64,000 nt of DNA. It comes from an uncultured Lachnospiraceae bacterium (GTDB lineage: Bacteria > Bacillota > Clostridia > Lachnospirales > Lachnospiraceae). Below the pieces are notes generated by a model. That model did not search any database. It was not told the origin of the DNA and saw nothing but the letters and a program-made list of their open reading frames with translations. The translations under genes and the position numbers were made by a program. This document shows, one piece after another, positions 284-12,086 of the stretch; position 1 is the first letter of the stretch, and every line of letters starts with the position of its first letter. Location: NCBI GenBank assembly GCA_947644545.1, contig CANRZW010000002.1, positions 1 to 64,000 on the forward strand, written 5' to 3'.

Positions 284-2908
284 ATGGATAGGAATGAGAA
301 CAAGGAATTGCAGGAGCTTAAGGAGCGGAATCTGAAAGGGGCGCCGACAATCTTCATTATATTTGCGGTTCTGATTTTGGTGGCGGTATCGGGAAATTAT
401 GTCACGTTTCTGGAGTCTCAGCTCTTTGAGGAACGCAGGAAACATATAGTGGAGTTCACGGATAAGGCGTCCGAGATCGTGGACGGCGTGATCGAGCACT
501 CCTGGCAGCAACTGCTGGCCTGTGAGCATATAATCCGGTATGAACAACCGGAATCGACAGAAGAACTGCTTGCTGTTCTGGGTTCTACCTTGGATTTTAT
601 GGATGGATCCAGTTCTATTGTACTTGCATATGATACCAGAGGAAATTATTATGCGTCGGATCAAAGTATGGGACGTTGGCAGTATATGCAGCAGTTGACG
701 ACAGGGGCAGATGACAGACAGTTGGTGGTGACGGAGATCCCACACAGAGAAGATTCCTATTTCCTGTTTCTGGAGCGGCTTGCAGAGCCGGTATTGCTGT
801 CTGACGGCGTAAAGATCACGCACTTTGCTCTGGGCGTGGATATAGAGACGATGCGGGAGAAGATCTCGGTGAGTGGTTTCGGTGAACAGTGTTACACTTA
901 CCTGATCAACGAGGATGGCAAAAGGCTCTATAAGTATACCTATGCCGATAACTTTATCGAGGGTTATAACGTGCTAAGCGCCATAGCGGATTTTCAGATC
1001 ATGCATGGAGGCGGCTATGAGGACTTTGTACAACAAATACAGGAGCGGAACAATACGGCGCTGGAATTTCGGTTTACGGATGAGGACGGACGCAAGAGCG
1101 ACTGGTATGTGGCAAATGCCTCGCTTTCTTCGGAGCAGTGGCAGATTCTTTTGTTTGTTCCCACAAAAGTGCTGGGCGCTGATTCTTCGCGGCTGCTAGA
1201 TCGGACGCTGTTGTTTTTTGGGGCGGTGTCCCTGGTGTTTTTGGCCTCGGCGGCGGTGATCATCGTGATCACCATGATATCCAGAGCGGATAAGCGACTT
1301 GTGAGGCAGCAGGAAGAGGCGAATAAACTGCTGCGGACAGCAGCGGAGGAAGCCAACAGCGCGAATCAGGCCAAGAGTGATTTCCTTTCCCATATGAGCC
1401 ATGACATCCGTACGCCGATCAACGGTATTATGGGTATGACCGATATTGCCATGAAAAATATCGGCAATCAGGATAAGGTATATGACTGTCTGACCAAAAT
1501 CAGCGGTTCCTCCCAGCATCTACTGGGGTTGATTAACGATGTGCTGGATATGAGCCGTATTGAGTCGGGGAAGACGAAGGTGAACCACGAGAGTTTTGAT
1601 ATCAGGACCTGTATCAATAACTGTGCTTCCATTATCGGCGGTCAATTGGCGGTGCGGGATCTCGAACTGAAATGCGAGATCGATGAGTTTGCCCATCCAC
1701 TGCTGATTGGCGACGAGCTGCATCTGCGCCAGGTGTTCATCAATATACTGGGCAATTCCGTGAAATTTACACCGGACGGCGGCACGATTTATCTGCGTGC
1801 CAAAGAGATGAAAGACGTGGCAGGCAGAGCGCTATACAGGTTTGAATTGGCAGATACGGGTATCGGTATGAAAGCGGATTTCCTGCCGCACCTGTTTGAA
1901 GCTTTTGCCCAAGAGGACGGCGGTATGCGCACGACCTACAAGGGTACGGGACTGGGCATGGCGATCACGAAGAAGTTCGTGGATATGATGGAAGGTACGA
2001 TCGAAGTTACGAGTGAGCTGAATGTGGGTACGACCTTTGTGATCGAGATGTGGTTTGACATCGATGTGGATGCCAGGGAAGATGAGAACAAGGCGGAGTT
2101 CCATGCCAATCTGAAGGATATGAAGGCGCTTCTGGTGGAGGATATCGAGTTGAATCTGGAGATAGCCAGGAGCATTCTGGAGGAGGAAGGCGCGGTGATC
2201 ACGCCGGCCATGAACGGACAGGAGGCTGTGGATGCTTTCTGTAACAATCCGCCCGGCACTTTCGATGTGATCATCATGGATATCATGATGCCGGTGATGG
2301 ATGGGATTACCGCCACGAAGACGATCCGCGCGTTGGAGCGGGAGGATGCCGGTACGATCCCGATCATCGCGATGACCGCCAACGCCTATGAGGAGGATAT
2401 CCGCAGTACCAGGGAAGCGGGCATGGATGCGCATCTGTCCAAGCCGATCGATGTCAATGTGCTGTTTAAGACGTTATCTCACTTCTATCCGCCGGCGAAT
2501 AAGACGGACAGGAGGTCGGATCTGAAAGGGCTTAACGTGCTGCTGGCTGATGATGTGGAACTGAATCTGGAGATTGCCGGGACGGTGCTGACGGACGAAG
2601 GGGCCGAGGTAGTATCGGTACAGAACGGGCAGGAGGCTCTGGAGCTTTTCCGGGACAGCGCCGCCGGGACTTTTGACGTGATCCTGATGGATGTGCATAT
2701 GCCGGTGATGGACGGACTTGATGCGGCCAGGGCGATCCGCAGCTTAGAGCGGGAGGATGCCGGCACGATCCCGATCATCGCGATGACGGCGGATGTCTAT
2801 GAGGAAGATGTCCGGAAAACAAAAGAAGCGGGGATGAACGGTCATCTGACGAAGCCTTTGAATGTGGAGAAAATGATATGGCTGCTGTCCGGTTACAGAG
2901 GCAGCTGA
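284..2908 (+). CDS. hybrid sensor histidine kinase with two receiver domains
   Basis: Membrane-bound signalling kinase of 874 aa. A hydrophobic helix near residues 23-43 and a second near 308-330 bracket an extracytoplasmic sensor region. A HisKA dimerisation domain follows, with the phospho-acceptor H373 in an SHMSHDIRTPING motif. The HATPase domain carries a DTGIGM box and a GTGLGMAI box. Two tandem receiver domains come last, with predicted phospho-Asp at D666 (VIIMDIMMP) and D803 (VILMDVHMP). The two receivers resemble each other closely, which suggests internal duplication. There is no HPt or output domain, so phosphate must pass to a partner encoded elsewhere. The gene sits 72 bp upstream of a lipoprotein with a solute-binding domain, which could feed it a ligand signal (inference). 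Confidence 0.93.
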   Translation: MDRNENKELQELKERNLKGAPTIFIIFAVLILVAVSGNYVTFLESQLFEERRKHIVEFTDKASEIVDGVIEHSWQQLLACEHIIRYEQPESTEELLAVLGSTLDFMDGSSSIVLAYDTRGNYYASDQSMGRWQYMQQLTTGADDRQLVVTEIPHREDSYFLFLERLAEPVLLSDGVKITHFALGVDIETMREKISVSGFGEQCYTYLINEDGKRLYKYTYADNFIEGYNVLSAIADFQIMHGGGYEDFVQQIQERNNTALEFRFTDEDGRKSDWYVANASLSSEQWQILLFVPTKVLGADSSRLLDRTLLFFGAVSLVFLASAAVIIVITMISRADKRLVRQQEEANKLLRTAAEEANSANQAKSDFLSHMSHDIRTPINGIMGMTDIAMKNIGNQDKVYDCLTKISGSSQHLLGLINDVLDMSRIESGKTKVNHESFDIRTCINNCASIIGGQLAVRDLELKCEIDEFAHPLLIGDELHLRQVFINILGNSVKFTPDGGTIYLRAKEMKDVAGRALYRFELADTGIGMKADFLPHLFEAFAQEDGGMRTTYKGTGLGMAITKKFVDMMEGTIEVTSELNVGTTFVIEMWFDIDVDAREDENKAEFHANLKDMKALLVEDIELNLEIARSILEEEGAVITPAMNGQEAVDAFCNNPPGTFDVIIMDIMMPVMDGITATKTIRALEREDAGTIPIIAMTANAYEEDIRSTREAGMDAHLSKPIDVNVLFKTLSHFYPPANKTDRRSDLKGLNVLLADDVELNLEIAGTVLTDEGAEVVSVQNGQEALELFRDSAAGTFDVILMDVHMPVMDGLDAARAIRSLEREDAGTIPIIAMTADVYEEDVRKTKEAGMNGHLTKPLNVEKMIWLLSGYRGS

Positions 2909-2980
2909 ACATAGAGGGAAATGCCCTGCGTTACAGGGGCGTTTGAGTTGAATACGTGACACTTCGGAATGGAGAAGACT

Positions 2981-5587
2981 ATGATGTGGCTTAAGATAAG
3001 AAAAATAACATGCGCTGCCGGCGTGCTGCTGGCTATGCTGTTAACGGGCTGTGCCGGCGGCGATACGAAGGTTGACGTCAGTGGGAAGGCCGATGGCAAA
3101 GAGGGGCAGAAAGAGAACAAGGAAGGGGAAGGCCTGACGATCACCAATTTCCATTATCTGCTCTCGGATGCGTTTATGGAAGCTTTTCATGAGAAATATC
3201 CGGAGATCAATCTGGAGATTACCAACTATTCCGGTATGAACGGCAGCGGTTATGCGCAGTATTCCCTGGAGCATGGGGATATCCCGGATATATATATCTC
3301 TACCCGGAATTTCAGCAGGGAATCTCAGGAGAAATATCTGCTGGATCTGTCCAATTATGATTTTGTCAATGAGTATTCGGAAGGGTTGTTGGGGGCGCAG
3401 GATGTGAACGGCGCTATTTATCTGCTGCCCTGCGGTTATCAGATCATCGGCATCAATTATAATAAGACGATCCTGGAGGAACATGGATGGAAGGTGCCGG
3501 AGAATTTTCAGGAGCTTACCGCGCTGGCGGAGGAGATTGAGGCAGCCGGCCTGCGGGCAGTGGGAAACGGTATGAATCTGGACGGTTACTGTTTCAGCTA
3601 TTTCTTTAACCTTGGCAATACGGTATATTTCAGTACGCCGGAAGGTGCGGAATGGAAGGAAGGATTTCCCAGAGGGGAAAAGAAGGCAGCAGGCAACGCT
3701 GGGCTGCAGGCCGCAGCAGACTACATGAAAAAGTGGGTGGAAGCGGGGCTGATCACGCAGGATAATATGGAAAGGGTGCGGTTCATGGAAGGGGACAGTG
3801 TCTTCTATCTGGGTCTGGGCCTCAATGCATATGAATGGACGACAGAGGACGGCAAACACTATGAATACGGGATCATGCCCTGGCTGGGAGAGGATGCAGC
3901 CGACAACATGCTCACCAGAAGCGTTTCCAGATATGTAGGCATTAACCGGTCGTTAGCGGAGCCGGGGAATGAGAAGAAGCTGGCAGAGGCCTTGCAGTTT
4001 ATGGAGTTTCTTTCCACGCCGGAGGGGCAGCAGACGCTGTTCACCAATGTCATTGATATTCCGACGCTGCATGAGAATGCGATCGGGGAAGGAAGTCCCT
4101 ACTGGGAGATCGCGGATATGATATCCGGCGGCAGGACGGTCCCTCTGGTCTATGAGGGCTGGGAACAGCAGCTTATCCCTATCTCGCAGGAGATCAGGCG
4201 ACTGGTAGACGGGGAAACGGATGCGGAAGGGATGTTGGAAGCCTTCGACAGGGTCAATGAAAGTCTGCTATCCGGGACTTCCGATGATGTGTATGGAACG
4301 GCGGCTTCGACGCTGTCTCTGGAAAAGACCGCGGAGCTGGTGGCTGTGGCGGAGGGTACGGCGGTAGGCGCAGACTGTGCCATGATTTCCCTGAATGGAG
4401 AGAACGGCAGCCGGTGGGGCAATCAATATGGCCTGGGCTGGTACCTGTATGAGGGGCCGATCGATTCCGGGATGATCAATATGATAAGACCGGTCTCTTC
4501 TTCTGTGTCGGTTCTGGAGCTGACAGGCGCGCAGATCAGGGCGATGCGGGACGCGGGTTTCGATGCGGACGGCAGCGGGCAGATTTTTGAGTACAGGTTA
4601 TTTACTGCAGGCGGGATGGAACTGGCGGATGAGACGGTGTACAGGCTGGCGGTCTCCACGGGAGAACTGACGGAGGAACAACGGGCGCAGGCAGAGGAGA
4701 CGACGGTCTCTCCGGCGCAGGCAATTCAGGATTATGTGAGGATGCTTGGAACCGTCAGTGAGGATACGATCGTCTGGGATGCGGCCCGGGCAGTGCAGAA
4801 CGGACAGAATCGGGATAAGGATCTGACGGGCCGGCAGGAAGAGGCGGAATCGGAGCATGACAGGAAGGAGCCGCCGGCCGGCTGGGAACTTACGCTTGCC
4901 TCCGAGGATTGGGGACTGGGATTTGGAGAGCCCGGCACGCAGCCTGCAGGCAATGCGTCAGCGGCGGATCTGGCCTGGTACGATGCCTGGTATGTGGGAG
5001 AAGATGCTGAGAAGGTGATTTATCTCACCTTTGACTGCGGCTACGAGAACGGGAATACGGAGCCGATTCTGGATGCGCTGAAGGAACATGGCGTGCCGGC
5101 AGCCTTTTTCGTGGTGGGACATTATCTGGAGACGGCGCCCGAGCTGGTGAAACGGATGGTGGACGAAGGTCATACGGTCGGCAATCACACCTATCATCAT
5201 CCGGATATGTCCACGATCCTGGACAAGGAGGCTTTCCGGAAGGAGGTGGATGATGTGGCATCGCTTTTCCGGGAGATCACCGGCACGGAACTGTCGCCGT
5301 ATTACCGTCCGCCCCAGGGCAAGTGTAACGTGGAGAATCTGAAGATGGCGCAGGAGCTGGGCTATCGAACGATCTTCTGGAGCCTGGCCTATGTGGATTG
5401 GGATACGGACAAGCAGCCCGGTCATGAGGAGGCCTTCGACAAGCTGACCTCGCGGGTGCATCCCGGAGCCGTGGTACTTTTGCACAATACTTCACAGACC
5501 AACGGGGAGATCCTGGACGAGCTTTTGACAAAGTGGGAGGAGATGGGGTATACATTCAGACCGCTTTCGGAGCTGACTGGTCGGTAA
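2981..5587 (+). CDS. three-domain lipoprotein: solute-binding + 5'-nucleotidase-C-like + PdaA-like polysaccharide deacetylase
   Basis: Start chosen at 2981 because GGAG lies 6 bp upstream; an earlier in-frame ATG is at 2969. The protein has 868 aa. Residues 1-24 form a lipoprotein signal (LLTGC, C24), so it is anchored on the outer face of the membrane. Roughly residues 40-430 are a family 1 extracellular solute-binding domain. Roughly 440-610 resemble the C-terminal domain of 5'-nucleotidases (VLELTGAQIRAMRDAG). Roughly 675-868 form a NodB deacetylase with TFDCGYENG, NHTYHHPDM, RPPQG and LLHNTS motifs. The TFD-GYENG form and FWSLAYVDW are typical of PdaA, which de-N-acetylates muramic acid in spore cortex. 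One uninterrupted frame carries all three, so this is a genuine fusion here and not adjacent genes. Substrate is unknown. Confidence 0.85.
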   Translation: MMWLKIRKITCAAGVLLAMLLTGCAGGDTKVDVSGKADGKEGQKENKEGEGLTITNFHYLLSDAFMEAFHEKYPEINLEITNYSGMNGSGYAQYSLEHGDIPDIYISTRNFSRESQEKYLLDLSNYDFVNEYSEGLLGAQDVNGAIYLLPCGYQIIGINYNKTILEEHGWKVPENFQELTALAEEIEAAGLRAVGNGMNLDGYCFSYFFNLGNTVYFSTPEGAEWKEGFPRGEKKAAGNAGLQAAADYMKKWVEAGLITQDNMERVRFMEGDSVFYLGLGLNAYEWTTEDGKHYEYGIMPWLGEDAADNMLTRSVSRYVGINRSLAEPGNEKKLAEALQFMEFLSTPEGQQTLFTNVIDIPTLHENAIGEGSPYWEIADMISGGRTVPLVYEGWEQQLIPISQEIRRLVDGETDAEGMLEAFDRVNESLLSGTSDDVYGTAASTLSLEKTAELVAVAEGTAVGADCAMISLNGENGSRWGNQYGLGWYLYEGPIDSGMINMIRPVSSSVSVLELTGAQIRAMRDAGFDADGSGQIFEYRLFTAGGMELADETVYRLAVSTGELTEEQRAQAEETTVSPAQAIQDYVRMLGTVSEDTIVWDAARAVQNGQNRDKDLTGRQEEAESEHDRKEPPAGWELTLASEDWGLGFGEPGTQPAGNASAADLAWYDAWYVGEDAEKVIYLTFDCGYENGNTEPILDALKEHGVPAAFFVVGHYLETAPELVKRMVDEGHTVGNHTYHHPDMSTILDKEAFRKEVDDVASLFREITGTELSPYYRPPQGKCNVENLKMAQELGYRTIFWSLAYVDWDTDKQPGHEEAFDKLTSRVHPGAVVLLHNTSQTNGEILDELLTKWEEMGYTFRPLSELTGR

Positions 5588-5722
5588 CAGGAATACAAAG
5601 CGGCGGCTAAGCAGAAAGGACACGGGAAGAAACGGTTTGTATCTGTGCGCTGCCCGGTACAAACTCGCGAATAGGCAGACCCGATGAATGGAGCCATAAG
5701 CAGCGCAGGAATGGAGGAAAAA

Positions 5723-6943
5723 ATGGAAAGAGTGATTGAGAAATTTCTCACGTATGTACAAATTGACACGGAGTCTTCGGAGGACAGCACGACCACGCCC
5801 TCCACGATGAAGCAGCATGATCTGGCCGCGCTCCTGGAGAAAGAGCTTAACGAGATGGGAGCGGAGGAGATCGTATATGACAAAGAGCATTGTTATGTGT
5901 ATGCTTCGATTCCGGCATCGGCGGGGCATGAAGACGCTCCCGTAATAGGGTTTATCGCCCATATGGACACCTCGCCGGCGGTGACCGGTGCGGGGGTGAA
6001 GCCGCGGATTATCGAGGCGTATGACGGCGGGGATATCGTATTGAACGCAAAGAAGCAGGTGGTGATGCGGACTGCCGATTTCCCGGAGCTGGCATCTTAT
6101 CAGGGGAAGAGAATGATCGTGACCGACGGCGAGACACTGCTTGGTGCGGATGACAAGGCAGGCGTGGCGGAGATCATGGCGATGGCGGAATATCTGTTGC
6201 AGCATCCGGAGGTTTCCCATGGAAAAATACGGGTCGGTTTTACGCCGGACGAAGAGGTGGGAGCCGGTGCGGATCATTTTGATGTAAAGCTTTTTGGCGC
6301 AGATTATGCCTATACGGTGGACGGCGGCAGGCTGGGGGAACTGGAATATGAGAATTTCAATGCGGCAGGGGCGAAGGTGACCGTGCACGGTCGGAGCGTA
6401 CATCCCGGATCGGCCAAGGATAAGATGCGCAATGCGATCCTGATGGCACAGGAATTCCAATCCATGCTTCCGGTGGCGGAGAATCCCATGTATACCTGCG
6501 GCTATGAAGGATTCTATCATCTGGATTCCCTGCAGGGCACAGTGGAAGAAGCGACGGCGGATTATATCATCCGTGATCATGACAGGCAGAAATTCGAACA
6601 GAAGAAGGAGAATTTCCTGCGGATCGGCAGTTTCCTGAATGAGAAGTACGGAGAAGGAACCTTTGAGATCGATATGAAGGATTCTTATTATAACATGAGA
6701 GAAGTGCTGGAAGAGCATATGTTTATCGTGGAACAGGCGAAGGATGCCATGATACAGCTTGGGGTGGAGCCGATCGTGTCCCCGATCAGAGGCGGTACGG
6801 ACGGCTGCAGATTGTCCTATATGGGCCTTCCCTGTCCGAATCTGTGTACCGGCGGCGGAAATGCCCACGGCAAATACGAATATGCCTGCATCGACGAGAT
6901 GGAGACGATCGTAGCGCTGCTTGTTAAGATCGCGCAGCGATAG
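5723..6943 (+). CDS. pepT: peptidase T (tripeptide aminopeptidase)
   Basis: Cytoplasmic zinc aminopeptidase of the M20 family that removes the N-terminal residue of tripeptides. Starting at 5723 (GGAGG 6 bp upstream, itself inside an earlier ATG at 5711) gives 406 aa, close to the usual length of about 408. Visible motifs are GFIAHMDTSPAV (metal ligand His-Asp), TLLGADDKAGVAEI (bridging Asp), GFTPDEEVGAG (catalytic Glu pair) and a C-terminal GGTDGCRLSYMGLPCPNL with GNAHGKYE. It is monocistronic, with a strong terminator directly downstream. Confidence 0.95.
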   Translation: MERVIEKFLTYVQIDTESSEDSTTTPSTMKQHDLAALLEKELNEMGAEEIVYDKEHCYVYASIPASAGHEDAPVIGFIAHMDTSPAVTGAGVKPRIIEAYDGGDIVLNAKKQVVMRTADFPELASYQGKRMIVTDGETLLGADDKAGVAEIMAMAEYLLQHPEVSHGKIRVGFTPDEEVGAGADHFDVKLFGADYAYTVDGGRLGELEYENFNAAGAKVTVHGRSVHPGSAKDKMRNAILMAQEFQSMLPVAENPMYTCGYEGFYHLDSLQGTVEEATADYIIRDHDRQKFEQKKENFLRIGSFLNEKYGEGTFEIDMKDSYYNMREVLEEHMFIVEQAKDAMIQLGVEPIVSPIRGGTDGCRLSYMGLPCPNLCTGGGNAHGKYEYACIDEMETIVALLVKIAQR

Positions 6944-7015: not shown

Positions 7016-7326
7016 TGGATTAGGGCGTCAAAAGGTGCTCTTTAAAAGATGAAAGGGCATACTGTACAAAAAGCTCTTTTGTGTCGGCTCCGTCGAATGG
7101 ATTTTCTAAATAGTCCGATAAGGTTGATAATGAGCGAACGCAACCGCCCTTTACACGCCATCCAGGCGTGGTACGGGCTTTTACGGACATCCATGTCCGT
7201 AAATTGCTGGATGACGAACGGACTATTAAGAAAATCTCAGTCTCCTACGCAAGACAGCTGCGTGAGCATTTTTGAACAATATGCCCATGCAAAATTTGGA
7301 AGAGCACCTTTTGACGCCCTAATCCA
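7016..7326. mobile_element. 311-bp MITE-like element with 27-bp terminal inverted repeats
   Basis: The ends are perfect 27-bp inverted repeats (7016-7042 and 7300-7326, outer bases TGGATTAGGGCG). The resemblance continues inward: GGGCATACTGTACAAAAA on the left matches the complement of the right, and the left block around 7098-7120 (ATTTTCT...AATAGTCCG) is mirrored near 7212-7230. The centre holds a perfect hairpin TTACGGACAT/ATGTCCGTAA (near 7180-7201) and a smaller one around CGCC...GGCG. No transposase reading frame fits inside; the plus-strand reading frame crossing it looks accidental. No clear target-site duplication was found. It could be a non-autonomous transposon or a large folded RNA. 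Confidence 0.65.
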
Positions 7327-10934: not shown

Positions 10935-11039
10935 TACGAGACATTTGTGCAGAAGCGTCACAATTTCCGTTGACCGCAGAGCAGAATCCGAATTTCTGCC
11001 TGTGTCCTCAGCGCAAAACGCTTCGGAATGGAGGAAGAG

Positions 11040-12086
11040 ATGAAGCAGAATCCAATGAGTTTTCAGTTAAAGCTAAGTCCGGAGGATTTTCTTCCGGCTA
11101 CGGAGGAGGAGAAACAGAGTCAGATCGTGATGCGTGAGAGCGTCAGCTTCTGGAAGGACGGTATGCGCCGTTTCGTGAAGAATAAGGTGGCGATGGTGAG
11201 TCTGATCGTTATTATTCTGGTGATGTTCTTTTCCTTTATTGTTCCGATGTTCTATCCTTACACCTATAAAGAGCAGTTTAAGGGGTCCAATCATCTGGCG
11301 CCCATGGAATATTCCGAGGCGGAGCTGGAGCGGATCGCCGCAGGCGAGAAGGTGTTCCCGCACATCTTCGGGACGGATAAGATGGGACGTGACTATGCCA
11401 TCCGCGTGATGATAGGAAGCCGGATCTCTCTGGTGGTAGGCCTGATCGCTACGGCCATCATTCTGGTGATCGGTTCTCTGTACGGATCTATCGCCGCCTT
11501 CTTCGGCGGTAGAGTGGATCTGGTCATGATGCGTATCGTGGATATCATCTATACCATTCCGGATATCCTGTTGATCGTGCTCTTGTCTTTTGCCCTGCAG
11601 GCGCCGCTCGATACCTTAAAGGGCGTTCCCGGGTTTAGCTGGGTGGGGATTGTGGGTGAGAACCTGATCAGTATCTTCATTGTATTTGCCCTGCTGTACT
11701 GGGTCGGTATGTCCCGTATGGTACGAAGCCAGATCCTGACATTAAAAGAGAGCGAGTTCGTCACGGCGGCGAGAGCGATGGGTGTGAGCAACGGCAAGAT
11801 CATCCGCAGGCATCTTTTGACAAACTGCATCGGTATTTTGATCGTGACGACGACGCTGCAGATCCCGTCTTCCATTTTTACGGAGAGCTTTCTGAGCTTT
11901 CTGGGTATGGGTGTAGCGGTGCCGCTGCCTTCCCTGGGAAGCCTGGCCAGCGATGCCCTGAACGGTTTCAATACTTATCCGTACCTGCTATTTATTCCGG
12001 CGGGATTGATCAGCTTGATTATCTTAAGCTTCAATCTGCTGGGCGACGGACTCAGGGATGCGTTTGACCCGAAATTAAAACACTAG
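11040..12086 (+). CDS. oppC: oligopeptide ABC importer, permease OppC
   Basis: Second permease of the peptide importer. ATG 11040 is preferred over ATG 11028 because GGAGG (11030-11034) sits 5 bp before it; this gives 348 aa. The OppC N-terminal cytoplasmic segment (SFWKDGMRRFVKNKVAMVSL) is followed by six membrane helices. The HIFGTDKMGRDYAIRVMIGSRISL signature and the EAA loop EFVTAARAMGVSNGKIIRRHLLTN are clear. A 105-bp gap separates it from oppB. Confidence 0.93.
   Translation: MKQNPMSFQLKLSPEDFLPATEEEKQSQIVMRESVSFWKDGMRRFVKNKVAMVSLIVIILVMFFSFIVPMFYPYTYKEQFKGSNHLAPMEYSEAELERIAAGEKVFPHIFGTDKMGRDYAIRVMIGSRISLVVGLIATAIILVIGSLYGSIAAFFGGRVDLVMMRIVDIIYTIPDILLIVLLSFALQAPLDTLKGVPGFSWVGIVGENLISIFIVFALLYWVGMSRMVRSQILTLKESEFVTAARAMGVSNGKIIRRHLLTNCIGILIVTTTLQIPSSIFTESFLSFLGMGVAVPLPSLGSLASDALNGFNTYPYLLFIPAGLISLIILSFNLLGDGLRDAFDPKLKH

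Follow-up and report, generated by a model that had tools for sequence, protein, structure and literature searches.

Why should an enzyme of the PdaA type share one polypeptide chain with a solute-binding lipoprotein, and is such a chain real? The question arises from a gene in the first 64,000 nucleotides (hereafter the window) of contig CANRZW010000002.1 of an uncultured Lachnospiraceae bacterium, which a sequence-only reading had described as a three-domain lipoprotein whose modules are normally separate. PdaA is known from spore-cortex synthesis and, as far as the available text of PMC10116595 and PMC12444981 goes, acts only once CwlD has stripped the stem peptide, uses D73 as the base for deacetylation and also carries out the cyclisation to muramic lactam. 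Solute-binding proteins (SBPs) that act with kinases are established as well, CuaD with CuaS being the case treated in the available text of PMC10384115. Here, we report that a fusion of a kinase-adjacent SBP and a PdaA-class domain is genuine and common to two species. Searches of open-access papers brought up none on an SBP/PdaA fusion of this sort. The fusion allows a test of whether Lachnospiraceae couple the editing of muramic acid to the sensing of their environment, and it draws attention to a family of SBPs, often encoded beside kinases, whose tail resembles the nucleotidase C-terminal domain.

The reading frame and its parts

The frame runs uninterrupted by stops for 868 amino acids (positions 2981–5587, + strand) and begins with a signal peptide and the lipobox LTGC with Cys24 (2981–3052, +; motif read from the sequence by eye), so that both the frame and the lipobox of the earlier reading stand. 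An ATG further upstream, at 2969, would give an alternative frame of 872 aa. The start at 2981 is favoured by the core TTCGGAATGGA (2963–2980, +) in front of it, which contains a GGAG resembling a ribosome-binding site and recurs at the 3' terminus of a dispersed leader repeat: counted from the first nucleotide of the core, the start codon follows after 18 nt, and this spacing matches that in nine of the 11 exact-core copies in the genome (20 of 37 repeat copies were looked at, and one of the 11 is the window's other copy). Domain searches placed two SBP profiles within residues 64–358, both above their Pfam gathering scores (SBP_bac_8, residues 65–358, 78.8 bits with a cut-off of 27; SBP_bac_1, 58.4 bits with a cut-off of 26), and Polysacc_deac_1 at residues 674–797 (121 bits, cut-off 23.1). 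The best NCBIfam model was spore_pdaA (TIGR02884; residues 656–865) at 281.4 bits, below its cut-off of 298. The NodB motifs start at residues 683 (TFDCGYENG), 776 (RPPQG) and 833 (LLHNTS). The family-1 solute-binding domain, the NodB motifs in PdaA form and their union behind a lipobox were thus all recovered as first described. Searched against its own genome (4.07 Mb, 83 contigs), the fusion has one full-length match, none of the others extending beyond one half or exceeding 39% identity. Phage records gave 30 matches, none covering more than 80% of the query, and the five matches listed were all to the NodB part.

Profile searches delimit a family-1 solute-binding domain at about residues 64–430 (3170–4270, +; the boundary at 430 is approximate) and, behind it, a segment remotely like the 5'-nucleotidase C-terminal domain at about residues 431–599 (4271–4777, +), ending at Trp599. 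Residues 1–599 (the N-part) correspond to an existing family of lipoproteins that carry both. The N-part profile was made from a 13-row alignment in which 11 rows are standalone members, and these 11 end 0–2 residues past an invariant Trp, which is Trp599 in the fusion. This profile matched 26 of 397 genomes of the bacterial family at E 1e-50 or better; there were 13 full-length matches above 740 bits, one being the window's 875-aa frame and 12 lying in frames of 591–632 aa. The whole fusion was matched at E 1e-60 or better by 143 of the 397 genomes, and among the matches listed only the window's own covered both halves, those to the N-part lying in frames of 591–632 aa and those to the PdaA part in open frames of 245–447 aa, with one (G302) in a frame given as 16175 aa. 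In a sample of the wider class the N-part was matched in three of 391 genomes; the window's genome was one of the three, and the other two came from the same bacterial family. That SBP and tail make up a single protein family means that two genes have fused and not three. Three separate modules are thereby ruled out, and the statement that the modules are normally separate holds for the PdaA part, which is a separate gene in relatives, but not for SBP and tail.

The tail is called a resemblance to the nucleotidase C-terminal domain and nothing stronger, because the window protein remains below the Pfam cut-off of 23.6 bits for 5_nucleotid_C (PF02872), scoring 13 bits at residues 450–521 (E 0.12) and 13, 13.9 or 16.4 bits depending on the length given. 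PF02872 is found at E 1 or better in eight of the 13 N-part members (best 2.9e-5), or in six of 13 when whole proteins are scanned, and a paralogue matches profile positions 25–142 of 158 at E 5e-4. Aligned with hhalign to PF02872 domains from relatives, the tail gave a probability of 90.7 (E 1.2e-6, 69 columns), and its single PDB match under E 0.1 was the nucleotidase 3ivd (E 0.0014), at residues 334–397 of 509, which are taken to be the nucleotidase C domain. The segment named in the sequence-only reading is therefore upheld as a remote profile likeness but not as a Pfam assignment. It also differs from nucleotidases in that the fusion has no metallophosphatase domain, and a search of the window's genome for PF02872 gave no match at E 0.001. 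As to the SBP itself, its profile matches maltose-, MsmE- and chitin-oligosaccharide-binding proteins, and NCBIfam hits to sugar binders are weak and far under cut-off; the ligand is probably a carbohydrate. A model of residues 1–620 (AlphaFold, two-sequence input) had a pLDDT of 35.6 and was left unused. Elsewhere, locus L200 holds an 844-aa frame in which a part resembling a membrane transporter (by eye) is joined to one of the more distant members of the family of SBPs with this tail.

NodB enzymes usually carry a metal-binding Asp at the position after the catalytic base. By profile, alignment and model, the remainder of the chain, about residues 623–868, belongs to the PdaA class of NodB domains (4901–5584, +). 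In an alignment of 122 PdaA-class rows (121 different sequences, that of the window being present twice) the base Asp685, equivalent to D73 of B. subtilis PdaA, and His736, His740, Arg776 and His835 are invariant, and His739 differs in two rows. Position 686, after the base, is Cys in 104 rows and Ala in 18; it is Cys in the fusion and Asn in B. subtilis PdaA. On the metal ligands, whose loss the earlier reading had named as a reason to abandon it, the base Asp and both metal His are kept, and the residue after the base is Cys. A model of residues 601–868 (pLDDT 85.9) has its best PDB matches in 1ny1 and 1w17 (TM 0.90 and 0.91 by target length, rmsd 1.7), and the structure prediction once proposed as a check therefore gives the fold of B. 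subtilis PdaA, whose structures (1ny1, 1w1a, 1w17) are also the closest by sequence. Compared with PdaA of B. subtilis and PdaA1 of C. difficile (TIGR02884, CE4), the domain is alike in its 42–43% identity to the B. subtilis structures and in retaining the GYENG motif along with the base Asp and two His; it is unlike them in the attached 600-aa sensor-type lipoprotein, in the Cys in place of Asn and in a score under the curated cut-off. Its residues lead us to expect deacetylation by the fused domain. None of 77 genomes of the genus reaches 298 bits with TIGR02884, but 24 stand apart as a group with scores of at least 260 bits, all others scoring 162 or less; in this PdaA class two genes are fused and 22 standalone, 19 of the latter being lipoproteins by pattern. 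Other extracytoplasmic domains stand ahead of NodB in PdaC-type proteins and in L057:6258-8714 of a Lachnoclostridium MAG, where a PdaC-like domain (just below cut-off) and DUF3298 precede a PdaA-class domain in an 818-aa frame, but the N-terminal domains of these proteins are unrelated to those of the fusion.

The join and its history

Among the 77 genomes of the genus searched, one of a second species, G446, has the full-length fusion without a stop, 81% identical over residues 3–867, and the kinase beside it is 86% identical to that of the window. DNA homology between the two is unbroken from about 2616 to 5100 at 78.5% identity (blastn), and homology to the standalone pdaA of two further congeners sets in at about 4864 (G456) and 4846 (G457). 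This onset and the ends of the standalone N-parts therefore place the join between Trp599 and about residue 623, the junction region after Trp599 being 4778–4846 (+). Each domain of the fusion is under purifying selection, with Ka/Ks between window and G446 of 0.11 for the SBP, 0.11 for the tail and 0.055 for the NodB domain (linker 601–640 and signal region, 0.26 each), and the two proteins differ by no indel from about residue 50 to the last residues. Two genes run together by assembly or sequencing would fit the position of the gene, less than 6 kb from the contig start, and the 117 loci fetched, of which 109 have a PdaA domain and three an N-part match, both occurring only in the window's own. 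Relatives with the parts as separate genes and an assembly join at this place had been named beforehand as grounds for rejection; the parts are indeed apart in relatives, but the same fusion recurs in G446 with unbroken DNA homology and is therefore no assembly join, and we give an artefact hardly any credence. The standalone pdaA genes of G456 and G457 were also considered as trimmed fusions, a reading that was rejected, blastn showing no DNA homology to the signal-peptide/SBP region of the fusion.

Peptidase T (pepT; 5684–6943, +; NCBIfam) is the downstream neighbour of the fusion, and pepT also lies downstream of pdaA in G446, G456 and G457; further genes, sigma- and anti-sigma-like as judged by eye, come next in the window, in G446 and in G457. 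These common surroundings place the fusion event at the pdaA–pepT locus of this clade. The neighbourhood is local: one of 61 PdaA loci from other records has pepT downstream and six have a phosphoesterase. Between pdaA and pepT, the genomes G446, G456 and G457 have a metallophosphoesterase gene; the window, where 5588–5683 separates the fusion from pepT, showed none. In a tree of 38 PdaA domains, window, G446, G456 and G457 cluster (support 99/92), and the standalone proteins of G456 and G457 side with the window, apart from G446 (97/81). Two standalone congeners thus stand between both fusions, so close relatives do without it, and the order requires two changes between the fused and standalone states, in conflict with one vertical origin. 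The fusion may have been lost in G456 and G457, or exchanged, or misplaced by the tree. Of the pS values between window and G446, that of the anti-sigma-like gene is the highest (0.70), followed by the PdaA domain alone (0.62), the kinase (0.57), the fusion (0.55), the sigma-like gene (0.53) and pepT (0.50). At sites near saturation, these values give no clear sign that the fusion passed recently from one species to the other. By pS the window is closer to G456 or G457 than to G446 in both the PdaA domain and the anti-sigma-like gene.

The adjacent kinase and the working of the fusion

Upstream of the fusion lies a hybrid histidine kinase of 874 aa with HisKA, HATPase_c and two receiver domains (284–2908, +; Pfam); a dCache sensor domain reaches E 0.11 (Pfam) and is not claimed. 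Kinase-core homology (E 1e-6) occurs within 1.5 kb at 20 of 29 N-part loci; leaving out that of the window makes it 19 of 28, with a weak case at L203 (E 5e-7). Of 61 PdaA loci, which include L057, five show such homology (E 1e-20, within 5 kb), a contrast that is only indicative because distances and limits differ. In 12 wider contexts, with genes called by a simple longest-ORF rule, a homologous kinase is adjacent or one ORF away at ten N-part loci (L148, L149, L151–L158), and the remaining two, L150 and L159, are cut off by the end of their contig. The short flanks of nine of the 28 non-self loci lack kinase homology; for two of these (L180, L181) a kinase is found beyond the flanks, and at L182 the contig breaks off. 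Kinase and SBP are adjacent in the window and in G446, as in SBP–kinase three-component systems, and the recurrence of such neighbours in the SBP family lends support to the link with the adjacent kinase that had been suggested. In CuaD-CuaS-CuaR of Ruminiclostridium cellulolyticum, as described in the available text of PMC10384115, the SBP gene likewise adjoins a sensor kinase gene; the present system differs in its hybrid kinase with two receivers, the extra tail of the SBP and the enzyme joined to it.

The best explanation, to which we give somewhat better than even weight, is that pdaA was captured by the gene for the kinase's outer partner; a PdaA enzyme would thereby be attached to a ligand sensor, with which it is probably co-expressed. 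A lipid-anchored sensor, partner of the upstream hybrid kinase, would have gained the mature part of a neighbouring pdaA at its C-terminus. The SBP domain and its tail would report to the kinase, presumably through contact, as in SBP–kinase three-component systems, and the PdaA domain would act outside the same membrane on N-acetylmuramic acid freed of its peptide, deacetylating and perhaps also cyclising it. The fusion would thereby put the enzyme under the expression of the kinase–sensor pair, probably by shared transcription, and fix enzyme and sensor together at a 1:1 ratio. The fusion, its occurrence in two species, the selection on its parts, the neighbouring kinase, the catalytic residues and the modelled PdaA fold are observed; partnership with the kinase, shared expression and enzyme activity are well-founded inferences.

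The same gene could also be a nearly neutral fusion, in which the halves work as before and one chain means nothing beyond shared expression. The linker is about as weakly constrained as the signal region, anchoring was barely altered given that most standalone PdaA proteins of the genus are already lipoproteins, and two close congeners keep PdaA standalone; the fusion is nevertheless retained in two well-diverged species with hardly an indel, and we consider neutrality unlikely. At the other extreme, the SBP ligand may alter the activity or access of the PdaA domain, or contact of that domain with glycan may alter kinase signalling. The likeness to sugar binders, including those of chitin oligosaccharides and extending to the weak NCBIfam hits, would suit such gating, as would the kinase gene that adjoins the fusion in both species, through which a coupling might run; the weakly conserved linker and the low pLDDT of the N-terminal model speak against it, and it strikes us as quite unlikely. 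Still less weight is given to a deacetylase and lactam synthase built into the hybrid-kinase sensor, with one lipoprotein sensing sugar, signalling and editing the wall under two-way coupling. Capture of pdaA by the kinase partner thus remains our preferred reading.

Whatever the sensor does, the fusion could serve as the species' muramic-delta-lactam enzyme in sporulation. It is the only PdaA-class gene found in the window's genome and in G446 (about 80% complete), and both genomes have SpoIVA as well as a CwlD-like amidase below the CwlD cut-off. Against this stands the distribution in the genus, with SpoIVA above cut-off in 71 of 77 genomes and the PdaA class in 24; it is present in 23 of the 71 and missing from 48, though many of the genomes are incomplete. 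In general, congeners with sporulation genes seem not to need a gene of the PdaA class, and the fusion makes testable whether muramic acid is edited outside spores in such a genus. CwlD-like matches occur in all 77 genomes at E 0.001, none above cut-off, a weak count as the same search matches eight of 14 control genomes. When the DNA upstream of 116 pdaA genes was scanned for sigma-G-like promoters, 19 had hits, compared with a mean of 9.9 (maximum 20) in shuffles and 5.7 (maximum 9) in random windows. A cortex role of the fusion is plausible, and that it is the enzyme of sporulation we hold to be possible, at somewhat less than even weight.

A dispersed leader and an RNA element

The repeat whose 3' core precedes the fusion is about 100 bp long and has a further copy at 10940–11046 of the window (copies L218–L237). 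It has 37 matches in the window's genome, its own included and many of them partial (40 of 75 candidates were scored), and is also abundant in G446 and G457. The exact core was present in 11 of the 20 copies looked at, and a frame of at least 60 codons is opened by ten of these. From its sequence the repeat looks like a mobile 5' leader carrying its own ribosome-binding site; it had no Rfam match at the gathering threshold. A TwoAYGGAY cis-regulatory RNA (RF01731) lies at 7085–7252 on the − strand of the window, with 114.7 bits against a gathering score of 43.
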